Source of the DNA: Sulfitobacter brevis
GTDB lineage: Bacteria; Pseudomonadota; Alphaproteobacteria; Rhodobacterales; Rhodobacteraceae
Assembly (NCBI RefSeq): GCF_900112755.1
Contig: NZ_FOMW01000014.1
Span: 1 to 64,000 of the forward strand
DNA: 64,000 nucleotides
Reading direction: 5' to 3'
Within the stretch, counting starts at the first letter, position 1. Each line of letters begins with the position of its first letter. Shown here piece by piece: positions 41,917 to 63,898 of the stretch. The position numbers were made by a program, and so were the translations under genes. The notes below the pieces were generated by a model, which saw nothing but the letters and a program-made list of their open reading frames with translations, was not told where the DNA came from and searched no databases.

Positions 41917-41919
41917 AAT

Positions 41920-42792
41920 ATGCGTCAGACCGTCCCCGAGGTTTGCACGTTCTTTGACGAGGCCACGAATGCGGCCTGTCATATTGTTAAGGATCCAGCC
42001 TCAAACGCCGTGGCGATTATCGATTCCATTCTGGATTTCGACGCCGCGGCAGGCCGCACCCATACGACCCACGCCGATATGCTGATCGATGAGATCACGC
42101 GAAATGGCTGGCAGGTCGCTTGGATATTAGAGACCCACGTGCACGCGGACCATCTGTCAGCAGCCCCTTATCTGGCCGAAAAACTTGGGGGCAAAATTGC
42201 GATTGGAGCCAATATAGCGGCAGTGCAAAAGGTCTTTGGTAAAATCTTCAACGCGGGCACCGAGTTCGAGATGGACGGCAGCCAGTTCGACCGATTGTTC
42301 GCGCACGGAGATGTCTTTGCCATCGGTAATCTTGATGTCACGGTGATGCATACGCCGGGGCATACGCCTGCCTGCGTAACCTACGTCATCGGCGATGCTG
42401 CATTTATCGGTGACACATTATTCATGCCCGATTTTGGTACCGCGCGTGCGGATTTCCCGGGCGGGTCTGCAACCGATCTTTATGCTTCGATCCAACGCAT
42501 TTTAGCACTGCCCGACGAGACGCGCTTGTTTTTGTGCCACGATTACAAAACCAAAACGCGCGATACGTTCTGTTGGCAAACGACTGTCGCGGAACAAAAG
42601 GCAACAAATGTTCATGTCGGCGGTGGTAAATCCGAAGAAGAGTTTGTTGATTTTCGCACCAAGCGGGATACGCAATTGGCAATGCCGAAACTTATCATTC
42701 CGTCCATTCAGGTGAACATGAATGCCGGAAAAATGCCCGCGCCTGATACGGATGGGGACGTTTACCTGAAGGTGCCAATCAACAAACTTTAA
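41920..42792 (+). CDS. MBL-fold hydrolase, persulfide dioxygenase/Blh-like
   Basis: 290 residues. Metal motif THVHADH (HxHxDH), then HTPGHTPACVTYVIGD and GDTLFMPDFGTARADFPGG, LFLCHDY: the ETHE1/Blh subgroup of metallo-beta-lactamase proteins. ETHE1-type enzymes oxidise glutathione persulfide to sulfite, the step after sulfide:quinone reductase. Context strongly favours a role in clearing MtoX-derived sulfide. Only 3 bases separate it from adhC. The fold is complete; true dioxygenase activity versus another sulfur-linked hydrolase is not proven by motifs alone. Confidence 0.88.
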   Translation: MRQTVPEVCTFFDEATNAACHIVKDPASNAVAIIDSILDFDAAAGRTHTTHADMLIDEITRNGWQVAWILETHVHADHLSAAPYLAEKLGGKIAIGANIAAVQKVFGKIFNAGTEFEMDGSQFDRLFAHGDVFAIGNLDVTVMHTPGHTPACVTYVIGDAAFIGDTLFMPDFGTARADFPGGSATDLYASIQRILALPDETRLFLCHDYKTKTRDTFCWQTTVAEQKATNVHVGGGKSEEEFVDFRTKRDTQLAMPKLIIPSIQVNMNAGKMPAPDTDGDVYLKVPINKL

Positions 42793-49559: not shown

Positions 49560-50282
49560 ATGAAGACAGGAAGACCAAAACGCCTCAAGCTGGAGCAGCG
49601 CATTGAACTGGCGCGGCGATACCATGCAGGTGAAACCCCAAAGGTGTTGTCCGAGGCTTACGGCGTCTCTCGCAGGCATGTGACGCGGCTTGCCAAGGAA
49701 GAGCAGGGCGAAGGTCTGGCTGTGCGTGATCCCTCTGAGCGGGTCAGTTTCCGCGCCTCAGCATCCGAGCTCGAAGCCTTTGATGCAGAATGGCAGACAC
49801 GTGGTTTTGCCAACCGTTCCCAAGCCCTCAATGCAGTGCTGCGTGGGCGGTGTGGCTTCCTTGATGTACCGCGTGATTTGGTCGCTGAATTCTGTGCCAG
49901 TTGGCGGCAAGCCAAGGATGTCAGTGATGCTGGGTTGGTGCTCGCAAAAGCGGTGCATCGCGGCAAGGTGTCTGTGTCATCTGAGGATCGTGCTTTGCTC
50001 GTCTCACTGCTTGATCTGGCGCAGTGCATGCGCCGTGAGCTTGGCCAAATGAAAGACGCGGCGCAGGTCCGGCGCAAGCAGGATTGGCCGTTAAAGGAAG
50101 AAGGGGATGTAGCCTTGCTGGCTCACCCAGCAGAGCTTGCGCGCGTGGCATCTGGGCTGCGATCGGTGGCGGGGAAGGGCGACCACGACGCAGCTCGGGC
50201 ACCGGCGGCCTCGGCTCCGCATGGAGGGGCTGCGCTGCAAGCGGGCAGAGCGGTTATCGATTGGAACACCTCCAATGGCTGA
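49560..50282 (+). CDS. MobC/relaxosome accessory-like protein
   Basis: 240 residues. A basic N-terminus with a helix-turn-helix-like stretch (KTGRPKRLKLEQRIELARRY, KVLSEAYGVSRRHVTRLAKE) is followed by a ribbon-helix-helix/MobC-like segment (RVSFRASASELEAFDAEW, GFANRSQALNAVLRG). Such proteins bind oriT and guide the relaxase. It lies directly downstream of the oriT-like site and overlaps the relaxase start by 8 bases. The last 40 residues are low-complexity. Confidence 0.75.
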   Translation: MKTGRPKRLKLEQRIELARRYHAGETPKVLSEAYGVSRRHVTRLAKEEQGEGLAVRDPSERVSFRASASELEAFDAEWQTRGFANRSQALNAVLRGRCGFLDVPRDLVAEFCASWRQAKDVSDAGLVLAKAVHRGKVSVSSEDRALLVSLLDLAQCMRRELGQMKDAAQVRRKQDWPLKEEGDVALLAHPAELARVASGLRSVAGKGDHDAARAPAASAPHGGAALQAGRAVIDWNTSNG

Positions 50283-52203
50283 TCCGCTTGCCCTCTACAG
50301 TTCCGTCATGGGCAAGCTCTGGGAGGATGAGCGTATCCGAGGCAAAGCGGCGGCGCGGATTGATGCGCGCATCGCCGGTCGGCGGCAAGGGCGCAGCTTC
50401 GCGCGTGTTGGATCGATGTCGGCGCGCAACGTCGCAAAGGCTGCCAGTGGTCAGAGCCGTGCGGCCGTGTTCAAGCGGATCAGGGCAGGGGGCTGCAAGA
50501 CGCAAAGCGCACTTGGTAATCAGCTTGCCTATATCAATGACAAAGCCGTCTACACCTATTCGACCATGACCAATGCGCTGACAGACGACGCGGTGCTGTC
50601 CGAAGATCAGAAGTCCGATATCATCGAGGCTTGGTCTGAGACCTGGCGCGGATCGACCAAGCTTGGGTTCACCTCGCACATGTTGTTGTCGTTTCCGACC
50701 GATGTGACCGTCGATCAGGTCCGTGACATCGCGATGGACTGGACAGAGCATTTCTTCGAGAGCGGCGAATACGGCGATCAGTGGGATTACGTTCTCGCCG
50801 TGCATGACGATCGCGCGCACAAACATGCCCACATCATTCTGAACAATCGCGGGCTCGATCAAGGCACATGGTTTTCTTGCTGGGCCGAAGGCGTGATGTC
50901 GCCACAGCTGATGCGCGAAAAGCAGGCTGAGATCGCGGAGGGCTACGGCGTCATGCTCGATGCTACCACACGGCTTGAGCGGGGTATCTTTGAGAAACCC
51001 GCAGGCCTCGCTGAAATCTACCGCGCCAAAGAAGAAGCGCGCCTGCCGCGCGAGATCATCATGACGGCTGAGGAGTCTGCGGTCGCGCAGGCTCAGGTCG
51101 TGGGCTTTGCCAAAGACTACACAGAGTTTGCCGACCTGCTGGACCGCATGGACCAGCGCCATCTGGCCCGCGCCGTGCGTGGCATGGCTGCCAACCTTGG
51201 CACAGGCACACCTTGGAAATTCACCGAAGGAGAGATCGATATGAAAGACATCAAAACCGTCGGTGATGCCATCGACTATTCTGAGCGCACAATTGAGGCG
51301 TTGCGGCTGAAAGCCGAGGAGCTTGACGTGACCGAGCGCGCGGCATTCGAGGCCAAGGCGGCACCCGTCATTGCGGATCTGTCACAGATGGTGCCCGATC
51401 CAGAGCTGCGGGCGCGGTTTGGCAAGCAGCTCGAAGAACCCTATCCGCCCGGTGCCGGAAACGAGGTGCTGATCGCAGCGCTGCAATCAGGCAATGATGA
51501 CGCCCTGAAAGATGTTCTCGCGCAGGCGGACGGCGTGGGCATGGACAGCAATGAGCTGGTGGCGCGGATCACCGCAGGCGGCACAAAGAATTACGGCATG
51601 GCGCAGGACTGGGTTGAACGTGACATGAATGCTGTCCTCAGCAAAGACGGGCTGACGGTTGATAGCGCGAATGATGAACAGCTTGATGGGGCCTTGGAGC
51701 GTGTGGACGGGGTTATGGAAGCCCTGACCGAGCGGGCCAAAGAATTGGGTGTCGCAATTGGACTCAGCCTTGCAGAGGAAGAAGCGGCGGATCTGCCTTT
51801 GATCGATGAGGATGATCGCGCGCCAAATACCTATCTACAGGATCTGGCGGATATGCTGCGCGATGGCCAGTTGTCGGAAGTCCAGGAAGAGACGGTCGAG
51901 CGCACCTTGCAGGCTGAGCTGTTCAAAGAACTTGGCGAGGAAGGTTTGTCCGAGCTGCGGCGCGGCAATTACGAAGTCCTTGATGCCGTGCTGCCCAACA
52001 AGATCGATCAGATCACCGTCACACAAGAATTCTTGGAAATGACCTTTGAAGAAACCGGTGACCAAGTCTTCACCGATCGCGCATCCAGTCTGCAGCAGGA
52101 CAAGGCCACGGAGGTGGCGCAGCTAAAAGGGCAGCAAGAGGCGCAAGCTTTGGGCAAAGATCTCGGGCGCGATCGTGGTCTCGACGATGAGATGGAATTC
52201 TAG
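50275..52203 (+). CDS. VirD2-like conjugative relaxase
   Basis: 642 residues from the ATG at 50275. Relaxase domain: motif I region QLAYINDKAVYTYS with the nucleophilic Tyr, and motif III HDDRAHKHAHIILNNRG (three-His metal site), as in VirD2/MOBP-type enzymes. It nicks oriT and pilots the strand through VirD4. The C-terminal 350 residues are acidic and helical, with the 5'-end-bound protein presumably recognised by the coupling protein. Overlaps mobC and is 15 bases from virD4. Confidence 0.88.
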   Translation: MADPLALYSSVMGKLWEDERIRGKAAARIDARIAGRRQGRSFARVGSMSARNVAKAASGQSRAAVFKRIRAGGCKTQSALGNQLAYINDKAVYTYSTMTNALTDDAVLSEDQKSDIIEAWSETWRGSTKLGFTSHMLLSFPTDVTVDQVRDIAMDWTEHFFESGEYGDQWDYVLAVHDDRAHKHAHIILNNRGLDQGTWFSCWAEGVMSPQLMREKQAEIAEGYGVMLDATTRLERGIFEKPAGLAEIYRAKEEARLPREIIMTAEESAVAQAQVVGFAKDYTEFADLLDRMDQRHLARAVRGMAANLGTGTPWKFTEGEIDMKDIKTVGDAIDYSERTIEALRLKAEELDVTERAAFEAKAAPVIADLSQMVPDPELRARFGKQLEEPYPPGAGNEVLIAALQSGNDDALKDVLAQADGVGMDSNELVARITAGGTKNYGMAQDWVERDMNAVLSKDGLTVDSANDEQLDGALERVDGVMEALTERAKELGVAIGLSLAEEEAADLPLIDEDDRAPNTYLQDLADMLRDGQLSEVQEETVERTLQAELFKELGEEGLSELRRGNYEVLDAVLPNKIDQITVTQEFLEMTFEETGDQVFTDRASSLQQDKATEVAQLKGQQEAQALGKDLGRDRGLDDEMEF

Positions 52204-52218
52204 AGCGAGGATGAACAG

Positions 52219-54015
52219 ATGAACAAAGCATTTCCTCTTTGGGCCGCCCTGCCTTTTGGCGCAATCTGCGGCGCGATCCTCGGGACCATTGTCGCCAGCT
52301 TCTATTTGGCATTGGCGTTGCGCACGGGGTTTGGCAATTTTGACATGCTGGCGGTTTGGAACGCCAGCGCGGGATTGCGCGCGGCACACCCCGAAGCGTT
52401 CAAAGTGGCCTACGGTGCGGTTGGCTTTGGCTCTATTGGCCTAGGTGGTCTCGCACTTGCTTGGACCTGGAAGAAGGAACGGGATGACTATGGTTCGGCC
52501 CATTGGCAGACCAAACCCGAGCTGATGAAGAACGACATGCTGCATAAGCCGGGGGAGGGATTTGTCTGTGGCAAGCTTGGGCTGCCAAAGTCAAAGGGCG
52601 AGTTTATTTCTTCGGCAGCCATCCCGCATGTGATGATGGTGGCGCCAACGCGGGCTGGTAAGGGTGTGGGTTTCGTCATCCCGAACTTGATGGCCTTCGC
52701 GGGGTCTGTGGTTGTCCTTGATGTCAAAGGTGAGAACTTTGAGAAAACCTCCCGCTTGCGTGCGCTCAATGGCGACGAGGTTTATCGGTTCAGCCCGTTT
52801 GACTGGTCCAATGCCACGCACCGCTACAATCCACTGTCGCGCATCGCCAAAGCACCAACCTTTGCGCAGCGGTTTACGGAAGTCAGCATCCTGGCCGATC
52901 TGTTCCTCGATAAGGACAACAAGACGTTGGATACGTTCTCGGAGGCGGGCAAGTCGATCTTTGTCGCGGCCTGTCTGCTAGCGATCCAGCGCGGGACGGC
53001 AAACCTTGGCGAGGTGAACAAGATCGTCGCGGGTGGTGAATATAAGAACGCACAGTACAAAACCTATGCAGATGAGGCCGAAGAAGCCATTCTGCGCGAA
53101 CTTTGGACCAACGCGGCCAGCGCATCTTCTCGATTGCTAACCTCGAATATTCAGGCGCTGATGACGGCGGGTCTGAAGCAGTGGGATAATCCGGCGGTAC
53201 GATCAGCGACCCAAGGCAGCGATTTCGATTTTGCAACGTTTCGCAAGAAACCGCAGTCGCTCTACATCGCCGTGTCAGAGGATCACATCGCAACACTGGC
53301 ACCGCTCTTGCGCCTGATGTTTGCGGATCTGATTGCGTCCATCCGTCTCAAAGAGCCAGGACCGGATGAGCCGTGGCCAGTCATGATGATGATTGATGAA
53401 TTCCAGCAAATGGGGGCAATGCCGTATCTTGAGCGCGCCATCCACTCGCTGGCGAGTTACGGGGGCAGGGTTGCGATGATCGCGCAGTCCCTGGCTTCGC
53501 TGGATCGGATCTATGGACCCGAAGGCCGTGAAAGTTTGGAAAACGGGGCAGGGCTGAAGCTTTACATCACGCCGCGCGATCAGCGGACGGTGAAGGAGGT
53601 GTCGGCGGCTGTTGGTAGCACGACGCGGGAAGCGGTGACCCGGATGTACGGGCGCAATAAGGGGCTACTGGGTGCGACGTCGACATCGGCGCGGTTTGAG
53701 GAGCGGCCGTTGCTCTCTGAAACTGAAGCTCGGCTGATGGATCCGGACGAGGTGATTATTCTTGCGTCGCCGCAGCATCCGATCAAAGCGCAGCGCATCA
53801 AGTACTACGATGATCCGCTCTTTAAGGCGATGGACGCCAAACAGAAGGATAAGCCGTTTCCTTATCCGCCAAGCGTGGAAGGCGTTGGGCCGTGGGGTGT
53901 TGGGAATGACGAGGACAGAGCGCAGGGGGCGAATGATACTGGGGGCCATCCGCCGGCGTGCAGCGCGAGATCGTGCAGAACGGCGCGAGGCGCGGGGGAT
54001 GCGGGTCATGGCTGA
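52219..54015 (+). CDS. virD4: VirD4/TraG type IV coupling protein
   Basis: 598 residues. Two N-terminal membrane segments (about 8-33 and 62-82), Walker A APTRAGKGVGFVIPN (about 141-155), DVKGENFEKT, Walker B MMMIDEFQQMGAMPYLERAI and AQSLASLDRIYG. It links the relaxase-DNA complex to the VirB channel. The last 30 residues (GHPPACSARSCRTARG...) do not look native, while the neighbouring frame continues with protein-like sequence; a frameshift near 53930 is likely. Confidence 0.92.
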   Translation: MNKAFPLWAALPFGAICGAILGTIVASFYLALALRTGFGNFDMLAVWNASAGLRAAHPEAFKVAYGAVGFGSIGLGGLALAWTWKKERDDYGSAHWQTKPELMKNDMLHKPGEGFVCGKLGLPKSKGEFISSAAIPHVMMVAPTRAGKGVGFVIPNLMAFAGSVVVLDVKGENFEKTSRLRALNGDEVYRFSPFDWSNATHRYNPLSRIAKAPTFAQRFTEVSILADLFLDKDNKTLDTFSEAGKSIFVAACLLAIQRGTANLGEVNKIVAGGEYKNAQYKTYADEAEEAILRELWTNAASASSRLLTSNIQALMTAGLKQWDNPAVRSATQGSDFDFATFRKKPQSLYIAVSEDHIATLAPLLRLMFADLIASIRLKEPGPDEPWPVMMMIDEFQQMGAMPYLERAIHSLASYGGRVAMIAQSLASLDRIYGPEGRESLENGAGLKLYITPRDQRTVKEVSAAVGSTTREAVTRMYGRNKGLLGATSTSARFEERPLLSETEARLMDPDEVIILASPQHPIKAQRIKYYDDPLFKAMDAKQKDKPFPYPPSVEGVGPWGVGNDEDRAQGANDTGGHPPACSARSCRTARGAGDAGHG

Positions 54016-54405: not shown

Positions 54406-55008
54406 CTAAACTCCTGCGGGATTGTCCACATCTCGCCCCATAGCTTCAAGATCAGAGTACCGATCCCCAATCCGGTGATGTGGACGGCCGCGTGTTGCTG
54501 CGCCAAGTGCCACGACGAGTTCATCAACTGCAGGAGCGTCATAGATCGAAAACTGGACGGTCAAATAATGCGAACGGCGCCCTGTGTCATGTTTATCCAT
54601 TAGAGGAATTTGGATCTGCGTGTTTGCTGGGCCGCGTGTGTTTGTAAATCCAAGATAGCTTTTTGCGCCAACGGCCTCGCGGTAGAAATTGCCGAATTGC
54701 AATGTGTGGATCAGTGCTGACGCATGCTCTACCTCGCAGCTGGTGCCTGCGATGCATGCCTTTCCATAAGCCTCAATCGCGTCGCCGGAGCCTGCCAGAG
54801 TGATCAGCCGGTCTGACAACAGTTTGCCCAAGACGGGAGCCATTCGTTTGATTTCGGGGGAAAGGTCTTCGACAAATCCACGGCCAGCCCAAGGGTTCGC
54901 CACAACTGCAGCGACCCCGATCATGCGCAGAACGGGGTCTGAGGCACGGCCACCTTCGGAGTGGATGTCTTCGTCAAACGTGACAACTTTTCGTAATTCG
55001 GGAAGCAT
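54406..55008 (-). CDS. Amino acid synthesis family (DUF1185-like) protein
   Basis: 200 residues, AGGAGAAAAAC before the ATG. Family marks: RKVVTFDEDIHSEGG, ASDPVLRMIGVAAVVANPWAGRGFVEDLSPE in part, AYGKACIAG, EHASALIHT, and KTDTGRR-like MDKHDTGRRSHYLTVQF. The family is named for a structure-based guess and has no proven reaction; it often neighbours flavin monooxygenases. Last gene of the minus-strand arm, 12 bases after the CoA-transferase fusion. Confidence 0.8.
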   Translation of the reverse strand: MLPELRKVVTFDEDIHSEGGRASDPVLRMIGVAAVVANPWAGRGFVEDLSPEIKRMAPVLGKLLSDRLITLAGSGDAIEAYGKACIAGTSCEVEHASALIHTLQFGNFYREAVGAKSYLGFTNTRGPANTQIQIPLMDKHDTGRRSHYLTVQFSIYDAPAVDELVVALGAATRGRPHHRIGDRYSDLEAMGRDVDNPAGV

Positions 55009-55020
55009 GTTTTTCTCCTG

Positions 55021-57132
55021 TCAAATGTGATATTCTTGGTGTCCGGCGAGCGTATGTACGACGCCTTTCACCTCAGTTCCGTGATAGATGCCAAAGGTTC
55101 CATGCCGGTTTTCCCGCGCATATCGTTGCAACATTGAGCGCTCGGCATCGTCCATAATTCGGTCAAAGGGGAGGGTGCACAGGTTGAAATACCGCATGTT
55201 TTCCGGCGGATCGCCATCAACTACGCCGTGATAGATCAACCGCTGTTGCCCACTTTGGGTGTTTTGATAAATGGCATAAAGATGATCGAGGGCGGGTGTC
55301 AGACCAAGGCCCTTCAAATGACCGACTAGCCCATCAACAGTATTAGCCTCGGGTGGTGGTGTTGGAACCGATAATTCGCCCTTCGCGTTTTCAAGCAACA
55401 AGACATGCTCGCCACGGGCCAGCACTGCGCCTAACGACACGCCCATTGTCTTCGCGGCAGCATCTGCCAGCGCGGTGTCCAGCCCAACATCAAAATAGGC
55501 ACCTTTGTAGTAGCCCAGAGGCGCCCCCTCGTGTGTTTCGAAATTGAGGACACGTCCGATCAGGATCAGATGATCTCCGGCATCGACCAGCCTCTCACGT
55601 GCACAACCGAAGTTTGTCAAAGAACCTTCGATAAGAGGCATATTTTGCGCATTGGCGCTCCATTTCGCAATGTTGAACTTCTCGCTTGATTGAGAGGCGA
55701 ACAGTCCCGAAATTTCCTTTTGTGTATCGGCTAGAATGTTAATGGCGAAATGCTCGGATTGCTCGAACGCTTCGCAAGACTGTGCTGATTTTGCGATGCA
55801 GACCAAGAGCAGGGGTGGATCAAGCGAGACAGATGTAAATGAGTTGGCGGTAAATCCGCGCGGTGTTCCATCAGCCTGACGTGTTGTCACGACGGTCACG
55901 CCTGTGGCAAAACTGCCGAAGGCATTGCGCAGGGCGCGTTTGGCATCCGCGTCCATTTCATTAGGTGTAACAAGTGTGTTCAGCAGATCATTGTCGGCAC
56001 CAAGTGCGGGGGGCGAGGCAAGTGGGCTATTGCCATACGCGCCAAAGCGCAGCGGGTTAGCGGCAACTGTCCATGGCTTTTGGAGCGGGTCGGGACCTTG
56101 GATTGTGGACAACATACCGCGGGCGATCACATGCGGATCATTTACTATGTCAGCAATGGTGTTGAGCGGCCCGTAAGGCACTTCGCCGCCCAGCAAGGCG
56201 GTCAGTTCTGCTTTGGTATGTGCATTGCTCCAATCTGCGACGATCGAATTCAGCTTGGTTGAGTTCTCTGCACGTGCGGCGCGGGAGGCAAAGCGGGGAT
56301 CTTCCTGCAAAGCGGGCAGGCCCATCAGGTTGGCCAACCGCTGCCAGAACGTGTCATCAACAATGCCCAAAGCAATGTGACCATCCTTGGCGGGAAACAG
56401 TCCGAATGGCGCAAGGAACGGATGCCCGTTGCCCTCTGGCCCAGGCACATTGCCCGTCATGTCGTGCAAATAGACCATTCGTTCACACAATGAGATCATC
56501 GCATCATACATCGCGACATCAACAAACTGGCCCTTGCCTGTCGCTTCGGCCTCACGAAGTGCTGCCATGATACCAAAGGCCATCATCATGCCGGCAAAGA
56601 TATCGCCAACACCGGGGCCGGTCTTGGTCGGGGTTGCCGCATCTGGCCCTGTCATGGCCATTAAGCCTCCCATCGCTTGGGCGACGACATCATACGACGG
56701 CCAATCTGAATAGGGGCTTTGGCCCGTGCGCGGATCGCCAAAACCGCGGATCGCAGCATAGACCAGTTTGGGGTTGTCCGCAGCGAGGGTCTCATAGGCA
56801 AGACCCAGACGCTCCATCACGCCTGGTCGGAAGTTTTCGACAATTACGTCTGCTGTCGCCGCGAGTTTGCGGAAATTTGCTTTTCCGTCTGGAGACTTTA
56901 GGTCCAATTGGATGCTTTTCTTGCCGCGGTTCAGACTGATGAAATAGCCCGCCCAATCTTGTGATGGATCGTCATCGCTGAATGGCCCATTGCCGCGGCT
57001 GGTGTCACCGTCAGCGCCTTCAATCTTGATCACCTCAGCGCCGTGATCGGCAAGATGCATAGTGCAATATGGGCCAGATAGCATGCGGCTGAGGTCTAAC
57101 ACCCGCAGCCCTTTGAGGATCTGCGTGCTCAT
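55021..57132 (-). CDS. CaiB-type CoA-transferase fused to a flavin reductase
   Basis: 703 residues with three parts. 1-390 is a family III CoA-transferase: LRVLDLSRMLSGPYCTMHLADHGAEVIKIE in part, YFISLNRGKKSIQLDL, ENFRPGVMERLGL, GQFVDVAMYDAM. 395-555 is a flavin reductase (AFGSFATGVTVVTTRQADG, GFTANSFTSVSLDPPLLLVCI, HFAINILAD). 560-703 resembles the NUDIX-like tail of some flavin reductases. The reductase should supply reduced flavin to the LLM monooxygenase of the same cluster, while the transferase activates an acid to its CoA thioester. ATGA overlap with the hydrolase gene. I do not know a described enzyme with this fusion. Confidence 0.88.
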   Translation of the reverse strand: MSTQILKGLRVLDLSRMLSGPYCTMHLADHGAEVIKIEGADGDTSRGNGPFSDDDPSQDWAGYFISLNRGKKSIQLDLKSPDGKANFRKLAATADVIVENFRPGVMERLGLAYETLAADNPKLVYAAIRGFGDPRTGQSPYSDWPSYDVVAQAMGGLMAMTGPDAATPTKTGPGVGDIFAGMMMAFGIMAALREAEATGKGQFVDVAMYDAMISLCERMVYLHDMTGNVPGPEGNGHPFLAPFGLFPAKDGHIALGIVDDTFWQRLANLMGLPALQEDPRFASRAARAENSTKLNSIVADWSNAHTKAELTALLGGEVPYGPLNTIADIVNDPHVIARGMLSTIQGPDPLQKPWTVAANPLRFGAYGNSPLASPPALGADNDLLNTLVTPNEMDADAKRALRNAFGSFATGVTVVTTRQADGTPRGFTANSFTSVSLDPPLLLVCIAKSAQSCEAFEQSEHFAINILADTQKEISGLFASQSSEKFNIAKWSANAQNMPLIEGSLTNFGCARERLVDAGDHLILIGRVLNFETHEGAPLGYYKGAYFDVGLDTALADAAAKTMGVSLGAVLARGEHVLLLENAKGELSVPTPPPEANTVDGLVGHLKGLGLTPALDHLYAIYQNTQSGQQRLIYHGVVDGDPPENMRYFNLCTLPFDRIMDDAERSMLQRYARENRHGTFGIYHGTEVKGVVHTLAGHQEYHI

Positions 57133-57929
57133 TCAGACGCTTCCAATGCATCAAGAAACTTCCGAAGCGGCACGTTTAAGGCCTCAGGGGCTTCGGCTAG
57201 TGCCATGTGTCTCAATCCCGATAGTACCAGCGTTTTGGCGCCTGTAATTTCGGCAGCGATAGCGTGGGCCATTTCCGGCCCGTTGCCGTAGTCCTCGTCG
57301 CCGGTGATAACGAGCGCCGGGCAGTTGATTGGTGGGTTTGGCGCAACGATCTCGTCAATCCCCTCGGCCAAAACGCGGTAGATCGTGTGATAGATCGGTT
57401 TCTCGTTGGCTGTCACCCAGCCACGTACCGTTTCCATAATGTCTGGATTGGCGACGCGAAAAGCATCGGTAAACCATCTTTCAAGCGCGGCTTCGACTGT
57501 CGATGTGGGCCCCATCTCGCGGGCTTGATCTACACGCTTCAAGATTGCTGCTTGGGCTGCATCACTGCGTTTATGGGGCGAATGCAGGATGCCCAAGGCG
57601 CGTGTCTTTTGCGGTGCATCCTGTGCAAACCGTCGGGCGATCATGCCACCAAGCGAAAACCCAACAATTGTTGCGCGCGCAATATCGCAATGATCCAGCA
57701 GATCCGCCAGTTGCTGTGAAAACAAAGAGAGGTCTGGCATTCGCGGCGGCGCTTTGGACATACCATGTCCAAAAAGATCGTAGCTAAGAACGCGGAAGCT
57801 GTCCGTCAGCGCAGGGGTTGTCCATTGCCAGCACTCTTTGTTCAACCCAAGGCCGTGGATCAAGACGACCACAGGCGCGCCCTTGGGGCCTGTGATGTCG
57901 AACTCTGTGCCATCCGGTGCTTTAGTCAT
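57129..57929 (-). CDS. Alpha/beta hydrolase (RutD/enol-lactonase-like)
   Basis: 266 residues from the ATG at 57929, overlapping the RidA stop by one base (TGATG). Oxyanion region LIHGLGLNKECW, nucleophile elbow GFSLGG, acid in ITGDEDYGN and late His in LRHMALAE are intact. It resembles 3-oxoadipate enol-lactonase and RutD-type hydrolases. Substrate unknown; in this cluster it may cleave a lactone, ester or carbamate-like intermediate made by the monooxygenase. Confidence 0.82.
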   Translation of the reverse strand: MTKAPDGTEFDITGPKGAPVVVLIHGLGLNKECWQWTTPALTDSFRVLSYDLFGHGMSKAPPRMPDLSLFSQQLADLLDHCDIARATIVGFSLGGMIARRFAQDAPQKTRALGILHSPHKRSDAAQAAILKRVDQAREMGPTSTVEAALERWFTDAFRVANPDIMETVRGWVTANEKPIYHTIYRVLAEGIDEIVAPNPPINCPALVITGDEDYGNGPEMAHAIAAEITGAKTLVLSGLRHMALAEAPEALNVPLRKFLDALEASE

Positions 57930-58330
57930 CAAGCTTCGCCTTCGAGAGGACGATAAGCCATGACCTCAACCTCGACGCGGGCGTCAACCAGCAAGTCAGA
58001 GACAACAGCGGAGCGTGTAGGCGGTTCAGCCGGGAAATATTGCCCGTAGATTTCGTTGAACCCAGGGAAATCGGATCGTTCCCGCAGCCAGACCATCGCT
58101 TTGACCACGTCGTCGCGGGTGCAGTCTGCCAGCGCCAGCGTTTCGGTGATGTCATCAAGCACCGCACGGGTTTGATCCTCGATGGAGCCGTCCGTCATTG
58201 GCGTGCCGTCCCGCATCGGAATCTGACCGGTTAGAAAGACAAAATCGCCAGCGCGGATCGCACGAGACAGCGTCAAAACACGCCCGCCGATTTCAATCGG
58301 GCCACCAAGAACTTGCTTTTTCTGAACCAT
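57929..58330 (-). CDS. RidA family protein
   Basis: 133 residues from the second of two close ATGs (58330), the one with AGGGAGG at proper distance. RidA marks: LSRAIRAGDFVFLTGQIPMRDG, IEDQTRAVLDDITETLALA, DVVKAMVWLRERSDFPGFNEIYGQYF in part, and the C-terminal RSAVVSDLLVDARVEVEVMAY with the conserved Arg and Glu. RidA proteins deaminate reactive enamines/imines; RutC-type members act in catabolic pathways. First gene of the minus-strand arm. Confidence 0.88.
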   Translation of the reverse strand: MVQKKQVLGGPIEIGGRVLTLSRAIRAGDFVFLTGQIPMRDGTPMTDGSIEDQTRAVLDDITETLALADCTRDDVVKAMVWLRERSDFPGFNEIYGQYFPAEPPTRSAVVSDLLVDARVEVEVMAYRPLEGEA

Positions 58331-58382
58331 GGTCATGCCTCCCTTGCTGGCAGGTTGCCGTGTTCGTGTAGAAAGGATTGCA

Positions 58383-58412
58383 GATTTTTCGACAGCGTAA
58401 GTCGATTTTTCG
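58383..58412. promoter_or_regulatory. Tandem GATTTTTCG repeats in the divergent promoter
   Basis: GATTTTTCG occurs at 58383-58391 and 58404-58412, exactly 21 bp apart (two helical turns), in the 140-base gap between the divergent ridA and aldehyde dehydrogenase arms. AraC-type regulators bind such tandem half-sites. Close variants (CATTTTTCG at 63896, GATTTATCG at 63927) flank the start of the cluster's own AraC-type gene. Confidence 0.5.
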
Positions 58413-58470
58413 GGCATGCTATTCGAGAAAGCCGCCAAGAATAGGAATCAGGCAAGGGAGGAACGTGCAT

Positions 58471-59952
58471 ATGGCCGACATCAAGAGCTATCAAATGTTG
58501 ATTGACGGTGCATGGGTAGATGCATCTGACGGTGGCACTTTCGACAGTGTGAACCCAACAACAGGTCAAATCTGGAGCCGCGTTCCCGAAGCGACAGAAG
58601 CCGATGTTAACCGTGCCGTTGAGACTGCGCATCACGCCTTTACCAAAGGACCATGGTCCAAGCTCACGCCGACAGAACGCGGCAAACACTTGCGCAAGCT
58701 AGGCGATTTGCTGGCGGAGCACTCCGAGGTGTTAGGCCGTACTGAATCCGTCGATACCGGAAAGATGCTCAAGGAAACGCGCTGGCAGGCTAAATACATA
58801 GCTGAGTTCTTTCACTTTTTTGCGGGCTGCGCGGACAAGGTCAGCGGTGAGACGTTGCCGATCGACAAGCCTGACATGTTTGTTTTTACCAAACGCGAGC
58901 CGCTTGGTGTGGTGGCCGCCGTTGTGCCATGGAATTCGCAGTTGTTTCTGGTTGCCGTAAAGCTGGGGCCAGCTTTGGCTGCGGGTAATACTGTGGTGCT
59001 GAAAGCGTCGGAGCACGCCAGCGCCGCGATGTTGGAGTTTGGCAAGCTTATCGAATTGGCTGGCATCCCGCCCGGTGTCGTTAATATCGTAACGGGCCAC
59101 GGAGAGCCTTGTGGACGCGCGCTAACCGGTCATCCTTTAGTCGCGCGGGTGTCGTTTACGGGCGGACCTAACGCTGCGCGACATGTGCTGGAAAACGTCA
59201 AACGTAACTTTGCCGAAGTGTCGCTTGAGTTGGGCGGCAAATCGCCTTTCATCGTGTTCGACGATGCGAACATCGAGAGCGCTGTGAATGCTTCGATTGC
59301 AGGGATTTTTGGCGCAACGGGGCAAAGTTGTGTCGCGGGTTCGCGGCTATATCTCCATGAAGATATAGCGGATGAGTTTCTGGAACGGATGACGGCACTG
59401 ACGCGGCAGATCGTGCTTGGTGATCCGCTGGCGGATGATACACAGATGGGCCCGCTTTGCACCGTCGGTCAGCTGGAGAACATCCAGCGCGAAGTGGCCT
59501 ATGCACAAGAGCAAGGAGCCGCTGTTCTGGCGGGAGGCAAACAGCCCGAAGGCATGGGGGGGTTGTTCTTTGAGCCGACAATCATCGAATGCCCGCGTCA
59601 GGATTTGCGCATTGTGGATACCGAACTGTTTGGGCCGGTCTTGTCAGTACAGCGCTTCAAGACCGAGGAAGAGGTACTCGCACTTGCCAACGATTCCGAA
59701 CATGGGCTAGCCGCGGGGATTTTCACGCAAAATTCCGCGCGTTCGTTGCGGATGGCAAATTCTGTGCAGGCAGGAATCGTCTGGGTAAACACCTACCGCG
59801 TGGTATCGCCAATAGCCGAGTTTGGTGGGGTCAAAGGGTCGGGCTATGGGCGTGAAAGCGGGTTTCAGGCAATTTATGATTACACCCGCCCCAAGACGAT
59901 CTGGATAAATACTTCGGATGAGCCGATGGCCAATCCGTTTGTGATGCGGTGA
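58471..59952 (+). CDS. Aldehyde dehydrogenase
   Basis: 493 residues from the ATG at 58471 (GGGAGGAA upstream). NAD-dependent ALDH with the Rossmann segment VVPWNSQLFL, general base in SLELGGKSPFIVFDDA, catalytic Cys in GATGQSCVAGSR and the tail GGVKGSGYGRE. Substrate range cannot be read from the sequence. In context it may oxidise an aldehyde released when the monooxygenase cleaves a C-N bond, as malic semialdehyde is in the CntA carnitine route. First gene of the plus-strand arm. Confidence 0.92.
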   Translation: MADIKSYQMLIDGAWVDASDGGTFDSVNPTTGQIWSRVPEATEADVNRAVETAHHAFTKGPWSKLTPTERGKHLRKLGDLLAEHSEVLGRTESVDTGKMLKETRWQAKYIAEFFHFFAGCADKVSGETLPIDKPDMFVFTKREPLGVVAAVVPWNSQLFLVAVKLGPALAAGNTVVLKASEHASAAMLEFGKLIELAGIPPGVVNIVTGHGEPCGRALTGHPLVARVSFTGGPNAARHVLENVKRNFAEVSLELGGKSPFIVFDDANIESAVNASIAGIFGATGQSCVAGSRLYLHEDIADEFLERMTALTRQIVLGDPLADDTQMGPLCTVGQLENIQREVAYAQEQGAAVLAGGKQPEGMGGLFFEPTIIECPRQDLRIVDTELFGPVLSVQRFKTEEEVLALANDSEHGLAAGIFTQNSARSLRMANSVQAGIVWVNTYRVVSPIAEFGGVKGSGYGRESGFQAIYDYTRPKTIWINTSDEPMANPFVMR

Positions 59953-60012
59953 CAGAGCTTTCGGAAAGCGGACGCTCGGCCTTACCAAAATACATGAGAA
60001 AGGAGCCTTAGA

Positions 60013-61047
60013 ATGAAGTTTCAATTGGCCATAAACTTGGAACGTATCGACGACAGTCTTGATATGAACGATGTCGCCCGTCACACGCTTGAGATGGTGC
60101 AGATCGCTGAAGAAGGCGGTTTCGATATTGTCTGGTCTGCAGAGCATCATGCGCTTGAAATGACCATTGCGCCCAACCCGCTGCAAATTTTGACATGGTG
60201 GGCGAAGGAAACCAGCAACATTCGGCTGGGAACGGCGGTAGCGACAGCGGCGTATTGGCATCCTATCAACCTTGCGGGTGAGGCGGCGTTTGTCGACTTG
60301 ATCAGTGGCGGGCGGCTTGAGTTCGGCATCGGGTCAGGGGCGTATCAGCGCGAGTTCGACCGAATGAAACCGGGCCTCAAGCAATCGGACGCGTGGCGCT
60401 ACATGCAGGAAATGCTGCCTGTTATCCGCGCTCTTTGGCAAGGCGACGTGGCGCATGACGGCGAATTCTGGCAGTTTCCCACGGCTACGTCGGTGCCCAA
60501 ACCGGTGCAGGATAATGTTCCAGTCTGGGTCTCCGCGCGTTCTCCTATCACCTATGATTATGCGATGCGTGAACGCTGCCATGTGAATTGTTGGCCGTTG
60601 ACACGGCCCTTTGCCGAAGCGGAACTTTACAAACAACAACTGGATGAAGCGATTGCAAAAGCTGACAACGGTTGGATTCCGAGATTCGCGTTAATGCGGC
60701 ATGCGTGTCTCTATGACAATGACGCTGACCGGCAAGAGGCCTTGGATGCTATTCGTCGGCTGCTTAGCCAGTTTGAGAACCTGTTTCGCAATTCGGGCGA
60801 TGTTGTCAACGGCTTTCCTGCGTCCATTCCGTTGGATGAATTGGCAGGCCGGGAACAATACGATCCCGAAATGCTCGAAGAAAACCTGATGTTCGGATCT
60901 CCTGACACAGTCATTCAAAAGCTGAAAAGATATCAGGCGTTGGGCGTGAATGAATACATTTATTACGCCTCGATGGGCCTAAACCACAAAGCGCAACAGC
61001 GATCACTTCGGATGTTCTGCAAAGAAGTCATGCCGGAATTCAGATAA
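60013..61047 (+). CDS. LLM-class flavin-dependent monooxygenase
   Basis: 344 residues, AAAGGAG before the ATG. Bacterial-luciferase-like TIM barrel: FDIVWSAEHHAL, IRLGTAVATAAYWHP, SGGRLEFGIGSGAYQREF, PVIRALWQGD and the C-terminal MFGSPDTVIQKLKRY. Enzymes of this class need FMNH2 from a separate reductase, here most likely the reductase domain fused to the CoA-transferase. Substrate unknown. Gaps of 60 bases to the aldehyde dehydrogenase and 12 to the hydratase gene imply one transcript. Confidence 0.9.
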   Translation: MKFQLAINLERIDDSLDMNDVARHTLEMVQIAEEGGFDIVWSAEHHALEMTIAPNPLQILTWWAKETSNIRLGTAVATAAYWHPINLAGEAAFVDLISGGRLEFGIGSGAYQREFDRMKPGLKQSDAWRYMQEMLPVIRALWQGDVAHDGEFWQFPTATSVPKPVQDNVPVWVSARSPITYDYAMRERCHVNCWPLTRPFAEAELYKQQLDEAIAKADNGWIPRFALMRHACLYDNDADRQEALDAIRRLLSQFENLFRNSGDVVNGFPASIPLDELAGREQYDPEMLEENLMFGSPDTVIQKLKRYQALGVNEYIYYASMGLNHKAQQRSLRMFCKEVMPEFR

Positions 61048-61059
61048 GGAGAGACCCTG

Positions 61060-61863
61060 ATGTCGACAGGTGTAACAACCCGCCGCGATGGACACGTGCT
61101 TGAGGTAACCTTGGAACGGGGCAAGGTGAATGCGATTGATGTCGCAACTTCTCAAGCGCTGGCTGCTGCGTTTCAAGAGCTGCATGAAGATAAGGACTTG
61201 CGCTGCGCCATCCTGACCGGTGGCGGCGATAAAATTTTCTCGGCGGGCTGGGACCTCAAAGCGTTGAATGATGGCGAGATGAGCCTGGATAACTGGTGGG
61301 AAGCGGACGAATACGGCTTTGGCGGTTTCACCGGGCTGACCGAAAACTGGGCGCTGAACAAACCGGTTATTGCAGCAATCAACGGGCTGGCGATTGGCGG
61401 GGGTTTTGAGATGGCGATGGGATGCGATTTGCTCATTGCCGCCGATCATGTCGAATTTGGCCTGCCTGAAATGCCTTTGGGGATCGTACCGGATGCAGGT
61501 GCGTTGCAGCGGTTGCCGCGGAGGATTCCGCATAACATTGCGATGGAGATGTTCCTGTTGGGCCGCCGGATGAGCGCGACCGAGGCGGCGCATTACGGTC
61601 TGGTCAACAAAGTAGTTCCCAAGGAACAGCTGATGGATGCCGCACGGGAATGGGCCGCGTCCATTGCATGGTCTGCGCCTCTTGCGATGCAGACGGTCAA
61701 GGAAGTGCAGCGTGAAATCGAGTGTATCCCACTGGAACAAGCCTTCCACAAAATGCGCACAGACCCGATGCCGACCTACCGCAAGATGCTGAAATCTGAA
61801 GATGCAAAGGAAGGTGTTGCCGCCTTTGTTGAAAAACGCGAACCTAATTTCAGAGGCGAATGA
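61060..61863 (+). CDS. Enoyl-CoA hydratase, close to carnitinyl-CoA dehydratase CaiD
   Basis: 267 residues. Crotonase marks: SAGWDLKALNDGE and AINGLAIGGGFEMAMGCDL for the oxyanion hole, GLPEMPLGIVPDAGALQRLP for the catalytic region. The pattern SAGWDLKA, GGFTGLTE, GRRMSATEA and late SEDAKEG...EKREPNFRGE closely follows E. coli CaiD, including its C-terminal end. CaiD interconverts crotonobetainyl-CoA and carnitinyl-CoA. Overlaps the dehydrogenase gene (ATGATG). Confidence 0.87.
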   Translation: MSTGVTTRRDGHVLEVTLERGKVNAIDVATSQALAAAFQELHEDKDLRCAILTGGGDKIFSAGWDLKALNDGEMSLDNWWEADEYGFGGFTGLTENWALNKPVIAAINGLAIGGGFEMAMGCDLLIAADHVEFGLPEMPLGIVPDAGALQRLPRRIPHNIAMEMFLLGRRMSATEAAHYGLVNKVVPKEQLMDAAREWAASIAWSAPLAMQTVKEVQREIECIPLEQAFHKMRTDPMPTYRKMLKSEDAKEGVAAFVEKREPNFRGE

Positions 61864-62813
61864 TGTATCCAAATCCTGAGAGTATTACCCGCGTCACCAG
61901 TATCGGTGCTGGACCGATCGGTGCCGGATGGACCGCGCATTTCCTTGCCCGTGGCTATGATGTCACGGCCTATCTGCATGACGCCTCCGAGACAGATGCA
62001 TTCATGTCGATCCTCAACACGGCGTGGATCAGCTTGACCGATCTTGGTCTTTCCCCCGGCGCATCCTTGGACAGGTTGCAGATTTCTACTGATCTTGAAG
62101 ATGCGCTCGCCGTAGCGGAATTCGTGCAAGAAAGCGGGCCGGAGCGGTTGGTAATCAAACAAGCGCTCTATGCTCGGATGGGCGCGATTTTGCCGCCTTC
62201 CGTTGTAATTGGATCGTCAACCTCGGGCCTGATGATGAGCGACATTCAGGCCGATTGCCCGACACCAGAGCGCACGGTCATAGGGCACCCTTTTAACCCG
62301 CCTTACCTGTTGCCGCTGGTCGAGATTGTTGGCGGCAAGAAAACCGCTCCCGAGGCCGTCGCTTGGGCAGGTGAGTTCTACAAGATTGCGGGCAAAGCAC
62401 CGCTGATGATGAAAAAGGAAATTCCTGGTTTTGTTGCAACCCGATTGCAAGAAGCGCTGTGGCGCGAAGCGTTGCATATGGTGGCTAACGGTGAAGCAAC
62501 GCCTGAAGATATCGATATTGCGCTGATGAACGGTCCGGCCCCGCGCATGGTAAGCCAAGGGCAGTGCATGGCCTTTCATGTGGCTTGTGGTGCAGGGGGT
62601 ATGGCCACAAATCTTGATCAATTCGGCCCCGCGTTAAAACTGCCTTGGACCCGTCTGGAGGCCCCCGAGTTGACCAAAGAGTTGCGTGACCGCATGGTGG
62701 ATGGCTGCAATGAGGTCGCGGGGAGCCGTCACTTTGAAGATATGGCTGCGCAACGTGATCGGGAAATTGTGGGGGTTCTAAATGCGCTGAAAGCGGCAAG
62801 GCAGGAAACTTAG
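61860..62813 (+). CDS. Carnitine 3-dehydrogenase-like 3-hydroxyacyl dehydrogenase
   Basis: 317 residues. NAD motif GAGPIGAGW, then FLARGYDVTAYL, LGLSPGASLDRLQ, SSTSGLMMSDIQ, GHPFNPPYLLPLVEIVGG, RLQEALWREALHMVANGEAT and NLDQFGPALKLPWTRLEAPELT. This whole series follows carnitine 3-dehydrogenases (CdhA), which oxidise L-carnitine to 3-dehydrocarnitine. The middle segment after DIDIALMNGPAPRM differs from typical CdhA (which has GLRWAFMG), so the substrate may be a relative of carnitine or its CoA thioester. Its stop overlaps the convergent regulator stop. Confidence 0.85.
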   Translation: MMYPNPESITRVTSIGAGPIGAGWTAHFLARGYDVTAYLHDASETDAFMSILNTAWISLTDLGLSPGASLDRLQISTDLEDALAVAEFVQESGPERLVIKQALYARMGAILPPSVVIGSSTSGLMMSDIQADCPTPERTVIGHPFNPPYLLPLVEIVGGKKTAPEAVAWAGEFYKIAGKAPLMMKKEIPGFVATRLQEALWREALHMVANGEATPEDIDIALMNGPAPRMVSQGQCMAFHVACGAGGMATNLDQFGPALKLPWTRLEAPELTKELRDRMVDGCNEVAGSRHFEDMAAQRDREIVGVLNALKAARQET

Positions 62814-63898
62814 AGCTTCTTGCCACCTAGCTTCTGTTGACGCTTGCGTTCCAGCGCATCAACAAAATCTGAAAGCGTGCCAGTCCAGCTCGGTGCAGGT
62901 TCGTTTTCAGGCCATGCTTCGCGATACTCCGAGGGCCGCCGCCCGAACAGCTTTCCGAAGGAATATGAAAAGTGCGACAAGGTGTTGAACCCCGATGCGG
63001 TTGCAATTTCCCGAACGCTCATCTGCGTGGAAATCAGCAAAATTCGAGCGTTCTCCACGCGGCGCAGAAGTCCAAATTGAACAACTGTGCACCCTACGTG
63101 ACGGCTGAACTGGCGTTCAAGCTGGCGTTGGGAGACGTCGAGGATTTCGGCAATTTCCGGGATGCTAAGTGGCTCTTCAATGTTTTGCTCGATGATCGAC
63201 ATGGCGCGCCGCACAAGCGGTAACATCTCTTCTTTGCTGCGACCCATTGTTCGGCGCTGCTCCGTCGTAGCGGTCCTGATCGCCGGGTACAGCATCTGAT
63301 CGGAAACCTCTCCAGACATGCCGCTTCCAAGAACCTCGTCAATCAAATGCAACATTAGATCGACGCCAGCCAGCCCGCCCGAACACGTCATGATCTTACC
63401 ATCAATTGTATATACCTGTTCGATTGCCTCCACTTGGGGAAATGATTCGCGAAAGCCGCTAAGCCAGGAAAAATGTGTTGTCGCCATTTTTCCATCCAAC
63501 AGCCCGGCTCTCGCAACCACGTAGCAACCCAGCTCAACAGCAGCGATGCGTCTGCCAGCGCGGGCTTCTTTGCGCAGCCAAGATGTCAGTCTTCTGTTGT
63601 CATAAACTTCGGTTCCCCAGCTCCCTAGAACAAAGACAAAATCGGCGGGATGCGTGGCTGTGATGTCATGATTTACCTGCGTATTCATACCGTTGCTGGC
63701 CGAAATGCGAGGGCCGTCAAACGATACTATATCCCAAGAAAACACCACTTCACTGGATAGGTAGTTCGCAATTCTCATGGTTTCGATCATCGTGATCATC
63801 GTGGTTAGATTGAAGCGCGGCACGACAACAAAAATCGCATGTGTCGGTGCGCGTTTTGTTGGAGAAGCAATATCAATTTGCATTTCGTGCAGTCCCAT
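62810..63898 (-). CDS. GlxA/CdhR-type AraC regulator of the catabolic cluster
   Basis: 362 residues. An N-terminal DJ-1/GATase1-like domain (FVVVPRFNLTTMITMIETMRIANYL in part, LGCYVVARAGLLDGK, MTCSGGLAGVDLMLHLI) and a C-terminal AraC helix-turn-helix (SIPEIAEILDVSQRQLERQFSRHVG, MSVREIATASGFNTLSHFSYSFGKLFGRRPSEYRE in part). The same architecture is used by CdhR, which controls carnitine catabolism in Pseudomonas. It lies convergent to the dehydrogenase gene. Candidate sites are the GATTTTTCG repeats. Confidence 0.9.
   Translation of the reverse strand: MGLHEMQIDIASPTKRAPTHAIFVVVPRFNLTTMITMIETMRIANYLSSEVVFSWDIVSFDGPRISASNGMNTQVNHDITATHPADFVFVLGSWGTEVYDNRRLTSWLRKEARAGRRIAAVELGCYVVARAGLLDGKMATTHFSWLSGFRESFPQVEAIEQVYTIDGKIMTCSGGLAGVDLMLHLIDEVLGSGMSGEVSDQMLYPAIRTATTEQRRTMGRSKEEMLPLVRRAMSIIEQNIEEPLSIPEIAEILDVSQRQLERQFSRHVGCTVVQFGLLRRVENARILLISTQMSVREIATASGFNTLSHFSYSFGKLFGRRPSEYREAWPENEPAPSWTGTLSDFVDALERKRQQKLGGKKL

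Follow-up and report, generated by a model that had tools for sequence, protein, structure and literature searches.

A carnitine-type cassette joined to a putative trigonelline-type ring-opening core in Sulfitobacter brevis: a candidate pathway for an N-heteroaromatic betaine

Introduction

Which compound does a bacterium degrade with a gene cluster that sets relatives of carnitine enzymes next to a flavin monooxygenase? The question is raised by positions 54406-63898 of a 64,000-nucleotide stretch of Sulfitobacter brevis DNA (contig NZ_FOMW01000014.1, positions 1 to 64,000; this whole stretch is called the window), where a preliminary description, made from the letters alone, had placed a flavin-based pathway for carnitine-like quaternary amines. 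All nine genes reported there are present and correctly placed according to Pfam and curated models, including the gene at 54406-55008, which had been left unnamed and encodes a PF06684 protein. As judged by sequence comparison, the locus is a real, conserved cluster in which a carnitine-type side-chain cassette is joined to a trigonelline-type ring-opening core, and it is not a chance assembly, since its gene order recurs, with small changes, in many other genomes. We propose, at a probability of roughly 45%, that it encodes a two-module pathway for an N-heteroaromatic betaine bearing a carnitine-like acid side chain. Literature searches returned no paper that we recognized as describing this cluster.

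A cassette that comes and goes around a core

The core comprises a luciferase-like flavin monooxygenase (LLM; 60013..61047, plus strand; Pfam Bac_luciferase, 191.7 bits), an aldehyde dehydrogenase (58471..59952, plus; Aldedh, 531.1 bits), an alpha/beta hydrolase (57129..57929, minus, with its ATG at 57929; Abhydrolase_1), the PF06684 protein (AA_synth/DUF1185; 54406..55008, minus; 229.3 bits), and a flavin reductase, which in S. brevis forms part of a fusion protein (55021..57132, minus; CoA_transf_3 and Flavin_Reduct) of a class III coenzyme A (CoA)-transferase (amino acids ~1-392) and the reductase with a C-terminal domain (~393-703). The cassette begins with a CaiD-like enoyl-CoA hydratase (ECH; 61060..61863, plus) and a carnitine-dehydrogenase-like 3-hydroxyacyl dehydrogenase (HCDH; 61860..62813, plus) and continues beyond the window with a beta-keto acid cleavage enzyme (BKACE), whose open reading frame (ORF) lies at 63976-64881 of the contig (plus; Pfam BKACE, 346.8 bits), with 25 bases within the window. 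After BKACE (C22, locus L008) stands a four-gene ATP-binding cassette (ABC) importer, Pot-type by eye, followed by an acyl-CoA dehydrogenase, an ADP-forming acyl-CoA synthetase, a beta-lactamase-like serine hydrolase, and a carboxymuconolactone decarboxylase (CMD) protein (C22:73192-73572); the co-directional run extends to ~73.6 kb of the contig. Plasmids of Aminobacter sp. SR38 and Parasedimentitalea marina are annotated with an identical order that includes BKACE; Aminobacter has its flavin reductase as an unfused gene of its own.

The association of these genes was followed across 78 loci that have an LLM of at least 58% identity and are flanked on both sides by at least 5.5 kb, drawn from 115 candidates (L003, L004, L045-L077, L105-L184) after duplicates, short flanks, and weaker LLMs had been dropped (the duplicate fetches were L045=L110, L046=L118, L047=L120, L048=L119, and L049=L131). 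Mechanically made ORF lists held many antisense ORFs; cluster tables built on such lists served as leads only. HCDH was present in 47 of the loci and absent from 31, and the rest of the cassette followed it: ECH was found in 47/47 loci with HCDH and 0/31 without, BKACE and acyl-CoA dehydrogenase each in 42/47 versus 0/31, and the importer binding protein in 21/47 versus 0/31, lying between BKACE and acyl-CoA dehydrogenase in 21 of 21 cases. A full CoA-transferase domain occurred in 27/47 versus 1/31 loci (Fisher 4e-7, with kinship not corrected), and remnants of it in two loci of either kind. LysR (0/47 versus 18/31) and a thiamine pyrophosphate (TPP)-dependent enzyme (0/47 versus 15/31) were confined to loci without HCDH. 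The core was mostly kept with and without HCDH, as seen for aldehyde dehydrogenase (46/47 and 29/31), hydrolase (40/47 and 27/31), PF06684 (33/47 and 23/31), and reductase (33/47 and 16/31). Since gene presence and absence co-vary in this way, and since rows with and without the cassette are intermixed in the LLM tree, gain and loss affect the cassette as one block, and the core around which this happens functions without it. The importer lies inside the cassette, and we therefore place the cassette upstream of the core, as a peripheral entry module.

Two cassette-free loci, L125 and L126, have a shortened CoA-transferase, ~150 amino acids of which align to the first ~206 of 392 positions. In L125 (Pseudohalocynthiibacter) the core is also accompanied by the alpha and beta genes of a nitrile hydratase (L125:3591-4859), an arrangement that would be compatible with another way into the same core.

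Kinship to carnitine enzymes and a probably different substrate

The cassette enzymes and the regulator resemble carnitine and betaine proteins without reaching the scores that define them. The ECH is 49% identical to Escherichia coli CaiD and scores 294.2 bits against the crotonobetainyl-CoA hydratase (CaiD) model, for which the cut-off of 500 is not reached, while the CoA-transferase domain is 28% identical to E. coli CaiB, scores 123.2 of 413 bits with the CaiB model (PRK03525), and has succinyl-CoA:mesaconate CoA-transferase as its top curated model (411.8 bits, cut-off 700); in comparison with the E. coli cai system, both the CaiB- and the CaiD-type enzyme thus stay under the model cut-offs. 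HCDH obtained 303.1 bits with the L-carnitine dehydrogenase model (cut-off 414) and 248.7 bits with a second carnitine dehydrogenase model (cut-off 592), which the fused carnitine dehydrogenase of locus L072, serving as a positive control, exceeded with 739.7 bits; HCDH has 317 amino acids versus 490-492 in the dehydrogenase fusions. The regulator (62810..63898, minus), a GATase1-AraC protein of the GbdR/CdhR kind, has GbdR as its nearest model, with 238.8 bits and a cut-off of 480. In a tree of 35 sequences, 22 cassette HCDHs form one clade (support 100/99), the sister of which, at a moderate 93/83, consists of two actinobacterial HCDHs, the one from Citricoccus being encoded with BKACE and a thioesterase; carnitine dehydrogenases lie further out, and three other HCDHs of the window genome are far away. 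HCDH therefore sits with carnitine dehydrogenases, so that for this protein the tree does not bring the refutation by phylogeny that the preliminary description had named, and the kinship, on these scores, is real but does not amount to identity.

That carnitine chemistry is conducted here in the strict sense is a different matter, and two observations bear on it. First, the host genome possesses its own canonical carnitine module at C37, with a BKACE and a 490-amino-acid dehydrogenase that groups with an annotated carnitine 3-dehydrogenase, and because of this ordinary module elsewhere carnitine itself is probably not the substrate of the cluster. Since such modules coexist with the cassette both in this host and in L072, where the canonical module directly adjoins the cassette, the latter is probably a parallel copy of gamma-butyrobetaine/carnitine chemistry devoted to another substrate. 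Passages of PMC12482172 describe carnitine dehydrogenase, BKACE, and thioesterase as the aerobic carnitine route and attribute to the Sinorhizobium meliloti dehydrogenase, which is of the canonical type, a dual action, as a dehydrogenase and on betainyl-CoA. Second, the cassette BKACEs carry L174 and R178 in 51/51 sequences, and the carnitine-linked ones T174 and W178 in 4/5; positions 174 and 178 may line the pocket, and the difference would agree with another substrate for the cassette. The BKACE tree did not resolve the cassette sequences as a single clade. The ORF of BKACE in L072 begins at a methionine that corresponds to residue 6 of the ORF in the window genome, five codons later, for which reason the true start may be 63991.

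With aerobic carnitine and gamma-butyrobetaine catabolism, the cluster has in common HCDH, BKACE, a CaiD-like hydratase, acyl-CoA dehydrogenase and synthetase, and a GbdR-like regulator; it differs in HCDH and ECH scores under the curated cut-offs, in the L174/R178 pair, in the coupling to an LLM core, and in the thioesterase, since a betainyl-CoA thioesterase found no tblastn match (Citricoccus query only, E 1e-8) in L008 or in the part of the window that starts at base 50001. The absence of a CntA-type Rieske enzyme, already remarked in the preliminary description, was upheld: none of the nine window proteins contains a Rieske domain, and one Rieske query gave no tblastn match in the same search space. 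In four other loci, a Rieske oxygenase gene is located just before the LLM (L115:8827-9972, L117:8847-9953, L131:8809-9978, and L133:4017-5171); the Rieske proteins of the two relatives scanned have GbcA as their nearest model, at 142.1 and 121.6 of 670 bits.

These results bear directly on the idea first advanced for the locus, namely that the flavin monooxygenase, in place of BKACE, breaks the C-N bond in carnitine, crotonobetaine, or gamma-butyrobetaine and hands its product to the aldehyde dehydrogenase. HCDH, ECH, and the regulator are indeed nearest to carnitine and betaine families, and that part of the carnitine-type reading stands; the BKACE reported as not visible was hidden by the window edge, is present in the run, and carries residues unlike those of carnitine-linked enzymes, the host and L072 have separate carnitine modules, the LLM occurs without the cassette in 31/78 loci, and its partners (reductase, aldehyde dehydrogenase, hydrolase, and PF06684) are those of the trigonelline-like LLMs considered below. 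This explanation is probably wrong, and we give it very little credence. Cleavage of glycine betaine by the LLM was likewise considered and rejected, as was that of carnitine.

The LLM core resembles trigonelline-type systems

The partners of the LLM were surveyed in 28 fetched loci whose LLM is less than 50% identical to that of the window, and in 20 of these flavin reductase, aldehyde dehydrogenase, alpha/beta hydrolase, and PF06684 all stand beside it. In a tree of 69 relatives, 18 rows (L039-L041, L085-L097, L101, and L102) make up a trigonelline-like clade (100/100), which includes the copy of S. meliloti on pSymA. Trigonelline degradation is reportedly encoded by tgnABCDE, in work attributed to Perchat et al. 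in 2018, and on account of this gene content together with the pSymA copy we identify the L039-L041 and L085-L097 type with trigonelline degradation. According to passages of PMC4207669, a strain lacking pSymA fails to grow on trigonelline, and passages of PMC8269262 state that TgnA/TgnB opens the ring of the compound. TgnB bears the UniProt number Q6F9F6 in a legend of PMC11354265.

The cluster shares with tgn, a pathway in which the ring of N-methylnicotinate is opened between C5 and C6, the grouping of flavin reductase, LLM, aldehyde dehydrogenase, and alpha/beta hydrolase, and PF06684 adjoins these genes also in the Acinetobacter and Leisingera clusters. It differs from tgn in the added carnitine-type cassette, in the fusion of the reductase to a CoA-transferase, in an LLM outside the clade, and in the succinate semialdehyde dehydrogenase, for which no match was found in the window cluster or L008. 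Rut pyrimidine degradation also unites LLM, flavin reductase, RidA, and alpha/beta hydrolase; as a candidate it was rejected, with RutF (86.2/254.75 bits), RutD (58.3/238.5), and RutC (44.1/169.1) all under their cut-offs and RutA structures at 21.6 bits.

A further arrangement, of a rhizobial and Azospirillum type (L005, L006, L007, L082, and L084; LLM 43-46% identical), has the order flavin reductase, aldehyde dehydrogenase, LLM, hydrolase, and CMD protein, often with NIPSNAP and a ProX-type importer. It may represent a third ring-opening-like system.

Proposed pathway

From gene content, gene order, modularity, and phylogeny, which are observed, we infer the substrate, the side-chain-first order, the bond cleaved, and every reaction. 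The substrate is probably betaine-like, in view of the GbdR-like regulator and of importers that in nine relatives resemble ProVWX by eye, and probably heteroaromatic, in view of the core. The course of degradation can be envisaged as follows: (i) the importer would take the substrate in, and the cassette would run gamma-butyrobetaine-type chemistry on the chain, beginning with CoA activation by the ADP-forming synthetase and/or the CoA-transferase; (ii) acyl-CoA dehydrogenase would desaturate the chain, the CaiD-like enzyme would hydrate it, and CoA would be released; (iii) HCDH would oxidize the product to a beta-keto acid, which BKACE would cleave with acetyl-CoA into acetoacetate and the chain-shortened betaine as a CoA ester, and the CoA-transferase could pass the CoA to the next substrate molecule, freeing the shortened betaine; (iv) the fused reductase would supply reduced flavin mononucleotide (FMNH2), the LLM oxygenase would open the ring as in the trigonelline pathway, and the aldehyde dehydrogenase would oxidize the new aldehyde; (v) the hydrolase with RidA, perhaps with PF06684, would split an N-formyl enamine, yielding formate, an amine, and a small acid. 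For strain HK4, passages of PMC2131755 describe a fatty-acid-like route that starts at gamma-butyrobetaine.

Two forms of substrate are possible: a pyridinium with an N-butyrate, and an N-methylpyridinium with a chain one acetate unit longer than that of homarine, a relation that resembles that of gonyol to dimethylsulfoniopropionate (DMSP). Reasoning from structure, both would be isosteric with gamma-butyrobetaine around the charged nitrogen; methylamine as a product would favor the N-methyl ring with a carbon-linked chain, and glycine the N-linked butyrate. It is conceivable, if rather doubtful, that marine bacteria degrade unrecognized heterocyclic carnitine analogues in this manner, the chain being trimmed by BKACE to a homarine-like betaine before the ring is opened. 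Gonyol itself was dismissed as a substrate, since it suits HCDH and BKACE but fits neither the LLM core nor the nitrogen links.

The two units could also act in the reverse order, with the core opening an N-methylpyridinium-type ring to an acid like 4-(N-methylformamido)but-3-enoate, which has the N-C4 skeleton of crotonobetaine and would then be taken by the cassette through CoA activation, hydration, oxidation, and BKACE cleavage. Aldehyde dehydrogenase, LLM, ECH, and HCDH do form a single co-directional run in the window, and the expected ring-opened acid would be isosteric with crotonobetaine. Since its double bond is already there, however, the acyl-CoA dehydrogenase found in 42/47 cassette loci would have no role, hydrolase and RidA would be redundant, the importer lies inside the cassette, and 31/78 loci manage without a cassette; we consider this order unlikely.

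Methylamine genes, homarine, and the weight of the evidence

A possible clue to the nitrogen product comes from the surroundings of the cassette. Subunits of N-methylglutamate synthase and a type III glutamine-synthetase-like gene (gmaS-like) were found near 6 of the 62 distinct cassette loci (67 fetched minus five duplicates), in three arrangements (L119 and L120; L164 and L166; L174 and L179), with ~5 kb of unrelated genes between the methylamine genes and the cassette at locus L174. The names N-methylglutamate synthase and gmaS are those applied here; the curated model bears the name 'type III glutamate--ammonia ligase'. In a survey of 50 hand-picked genomes, a gmaS-like gene was present in 10/12 genomes with the cassette, 14/15 cassette-free ones of the same LLM clade, 4/10 with trigonelline-like LLMs only, and 3/13 with no LLM, that is, in 24/27 with an LLM of at least 52% identity versus 7/23 without (Fisher 2.5e-5, on hand-picked genomes and with kinship not corrected). 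Methylamine or N-methylglutamate may thus be released by the pathway. A search of the window genome found no gmaS-like gene, which speaks against methylamine use there.

The same enrichment can be claimed by another explanation, in which the core is the published homarine pathway (reportedly homABCDER; Ferrer-Gonzalez et al. 2026) and the cluster a homarine cluster with extra genes, mostly known. The points of comparison with homarine catabolism are the N-methylpyridinium betaine and the link to N-methylglutamate genes. Passages of PMC12817926 report that Ruegeria pomeroyi draws homarine down fast, the one R. pomeroyi genome searched here, SZCCDBG043, has a single LLM of the family (E <= 1e-55), namely that of this cluster (89% identical), and passages of PMC13390433 have Mgd participate in homarine catabolism. 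On the other hand, the carnitine-type cassette would be needless for homarine, a cassette-free, LysR-regulated type fits a five-enzyme operon better, and according to passages of PMC8269262 homarine is, on steric grounds, an unlikely substrate for machinery of the TgnA/TgnB type, and homarine supported poorer growth of R. pomeroyi DSS-3 than trigonelline did. On balance we find this explanation quite improbable; if the core is a homarine system, the novelty of the cluster is lower. The homarine passages of PMC9038784 and PMC9723723 contain no catabolic genes, and the SZCCDBG043 locus (L107) has no BKACE and no close importer homologue.

The cassette-free sister type (L054-L058, L060-L070, and L076) combines, in many loci, LysR, a small flavin reductase, aldehyde dehydrogenase, LLM, PF06684, hydrolase, and the TPP-dependent enzyme. 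It may be a homarine operon.

Several points weigh against the proposed two-module pathway for an N-heteroaromatic betaine: (i) no natural product that exactly answers this description is known to us; (ii) the window LLM lies outside the trigonelline-like clade and is 34-40% identical to its 18 LLMs, so that ring opening is argued from the company of gene families and not from orthology to TgnB or to homarine enzymes; (iii) this company is itself incomplete, with none of the four partners in L083, L098, L099, L100, and L104, one in L101, no reductase in L102, and, at the pSymA locus L040, reductase, LLM, aldehyde dehydrogenase, and PF06684 with no alpha/beta hydrolase; (iv) L111 keeps a full CoA-transferase domain without a cassette, while 18/47 cassette loci have no such domain and 2 have a remnant, and 26/47 have no binding protein at 60% or more; (v) a downstream cassette would also come and go as a unit, and the chain-first order is therefore not proven; (vi) of the two substrate forms, the methylamine genes seen close to some relatives suit the N-methyl ring whose chain is carbon-linked and not the N-linked butyrate, and the window genome is without the gmaS-like synthetase.

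Gene layout and flanking regions

Within the window, two divergent gene runs meet at a 140-base gap (58331-58470). The minus run consists of RidA, alpha/beta hydrolase, the fusion, and PF06684, and the plus run of aldehyde dehydrogenase, LLM, ECH, and HCDH. The RidA-family imine/enamine deaminase occupies 57929..58330 (minus; Pfam Ribonuc_L-PSP; ATG at 58330). The PF06684 product has the PDB relatives 2qtp and 3byq, both uncharacterized, and the reductase half of the fusion matches 3rh7, an uncharacterized oxidoreductase, over 294 of 299 amino acids. The alpha/beta hydrolase has PcaD as its top NCBIfam model (160.2 bits, cut-off 255.85), and the aldehyde dehydrogenase scores 467 bits with the betaine aldehyde dehydrogenase (BADH) model, under the cut-off of 668.6.

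The G+C content of the cluster, 0.548, equals in practice that of the window to its left, 0.549. The left neighbors are relaxase and TraG-type coupling-protein (conjugation) genes (window 50137-54012), which suggests a mobile replicon or element. Elsewhere in the window, at 40804-42789, a zinc alcohol dehydrogenase, by eye like the formaldehyde dehydrogenase FrmA, is paired with a metallo-beta-lactamase-fold gene, and related copies of the pair are found near the cluster in L163. Further downstream on the contig, L008:10809-18440 holds FAD-dependent oxidoreductase genes, an enolase-superfamily enzyme, and a dipeptide-type ABC importer, probably another catabolic operon. On the Aminobacter plasmid, an operon next to the cluster (L003:1-7078), annotated as PrpD, acyl-CoA dehydrogenase, CoA-transferase, MaoC, CoA ester lyase, and electron transfer flavoprotein (ETF), looks like C5-dicarboxylate catabolism.

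Distribution and implications

The LLM found a match at E <= 1e-60 in 118 of 390 sampled genomes of the order, with 28 places in 25 genomes at 60-100% identity (window included), two at 43-46%, and the rest at 35-39%. In a scan of named genomes, the best 80 of 537 relatives (70-91% identity) include Ruegeria, Roseovarius, Planktomarina, HTCC2083, MED-G08, single-cell genomes, Gammaproteobacteria, and metagenome-assembled genomes (MAGs) of Acidimicrobiaceae. The cluster carries the cassette in Ruegeria, Roseovarius, Planktomarina, HTCC2083, MED-G08, single-cell alphaproteobacterial genomes, and a single Oceanospirillaceae MAG (L146); in the remaining Gammaproteobacteria and the MAGs of Acidimicrobiaceae, core genes alone are seen. 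The cluster is widespread in Rhodobacterales.

To conclude, the locus offers a sharp example of a side-chain cassette moving as a unit around a ring-opening-type core, and its gene set would predict the chemistry of a metabolite: a betaine, N-heteroaromatic, with a carnitine-like chain. Since most of the cassette-bearing organisms are, going by their names, presumably marine, the substrate is probably common in seawater. If marine bacteria do degrade such heterocyclic carnitine analogues, labile dissolved organic nitrogen would include this substrate as a component that has been overlooked.

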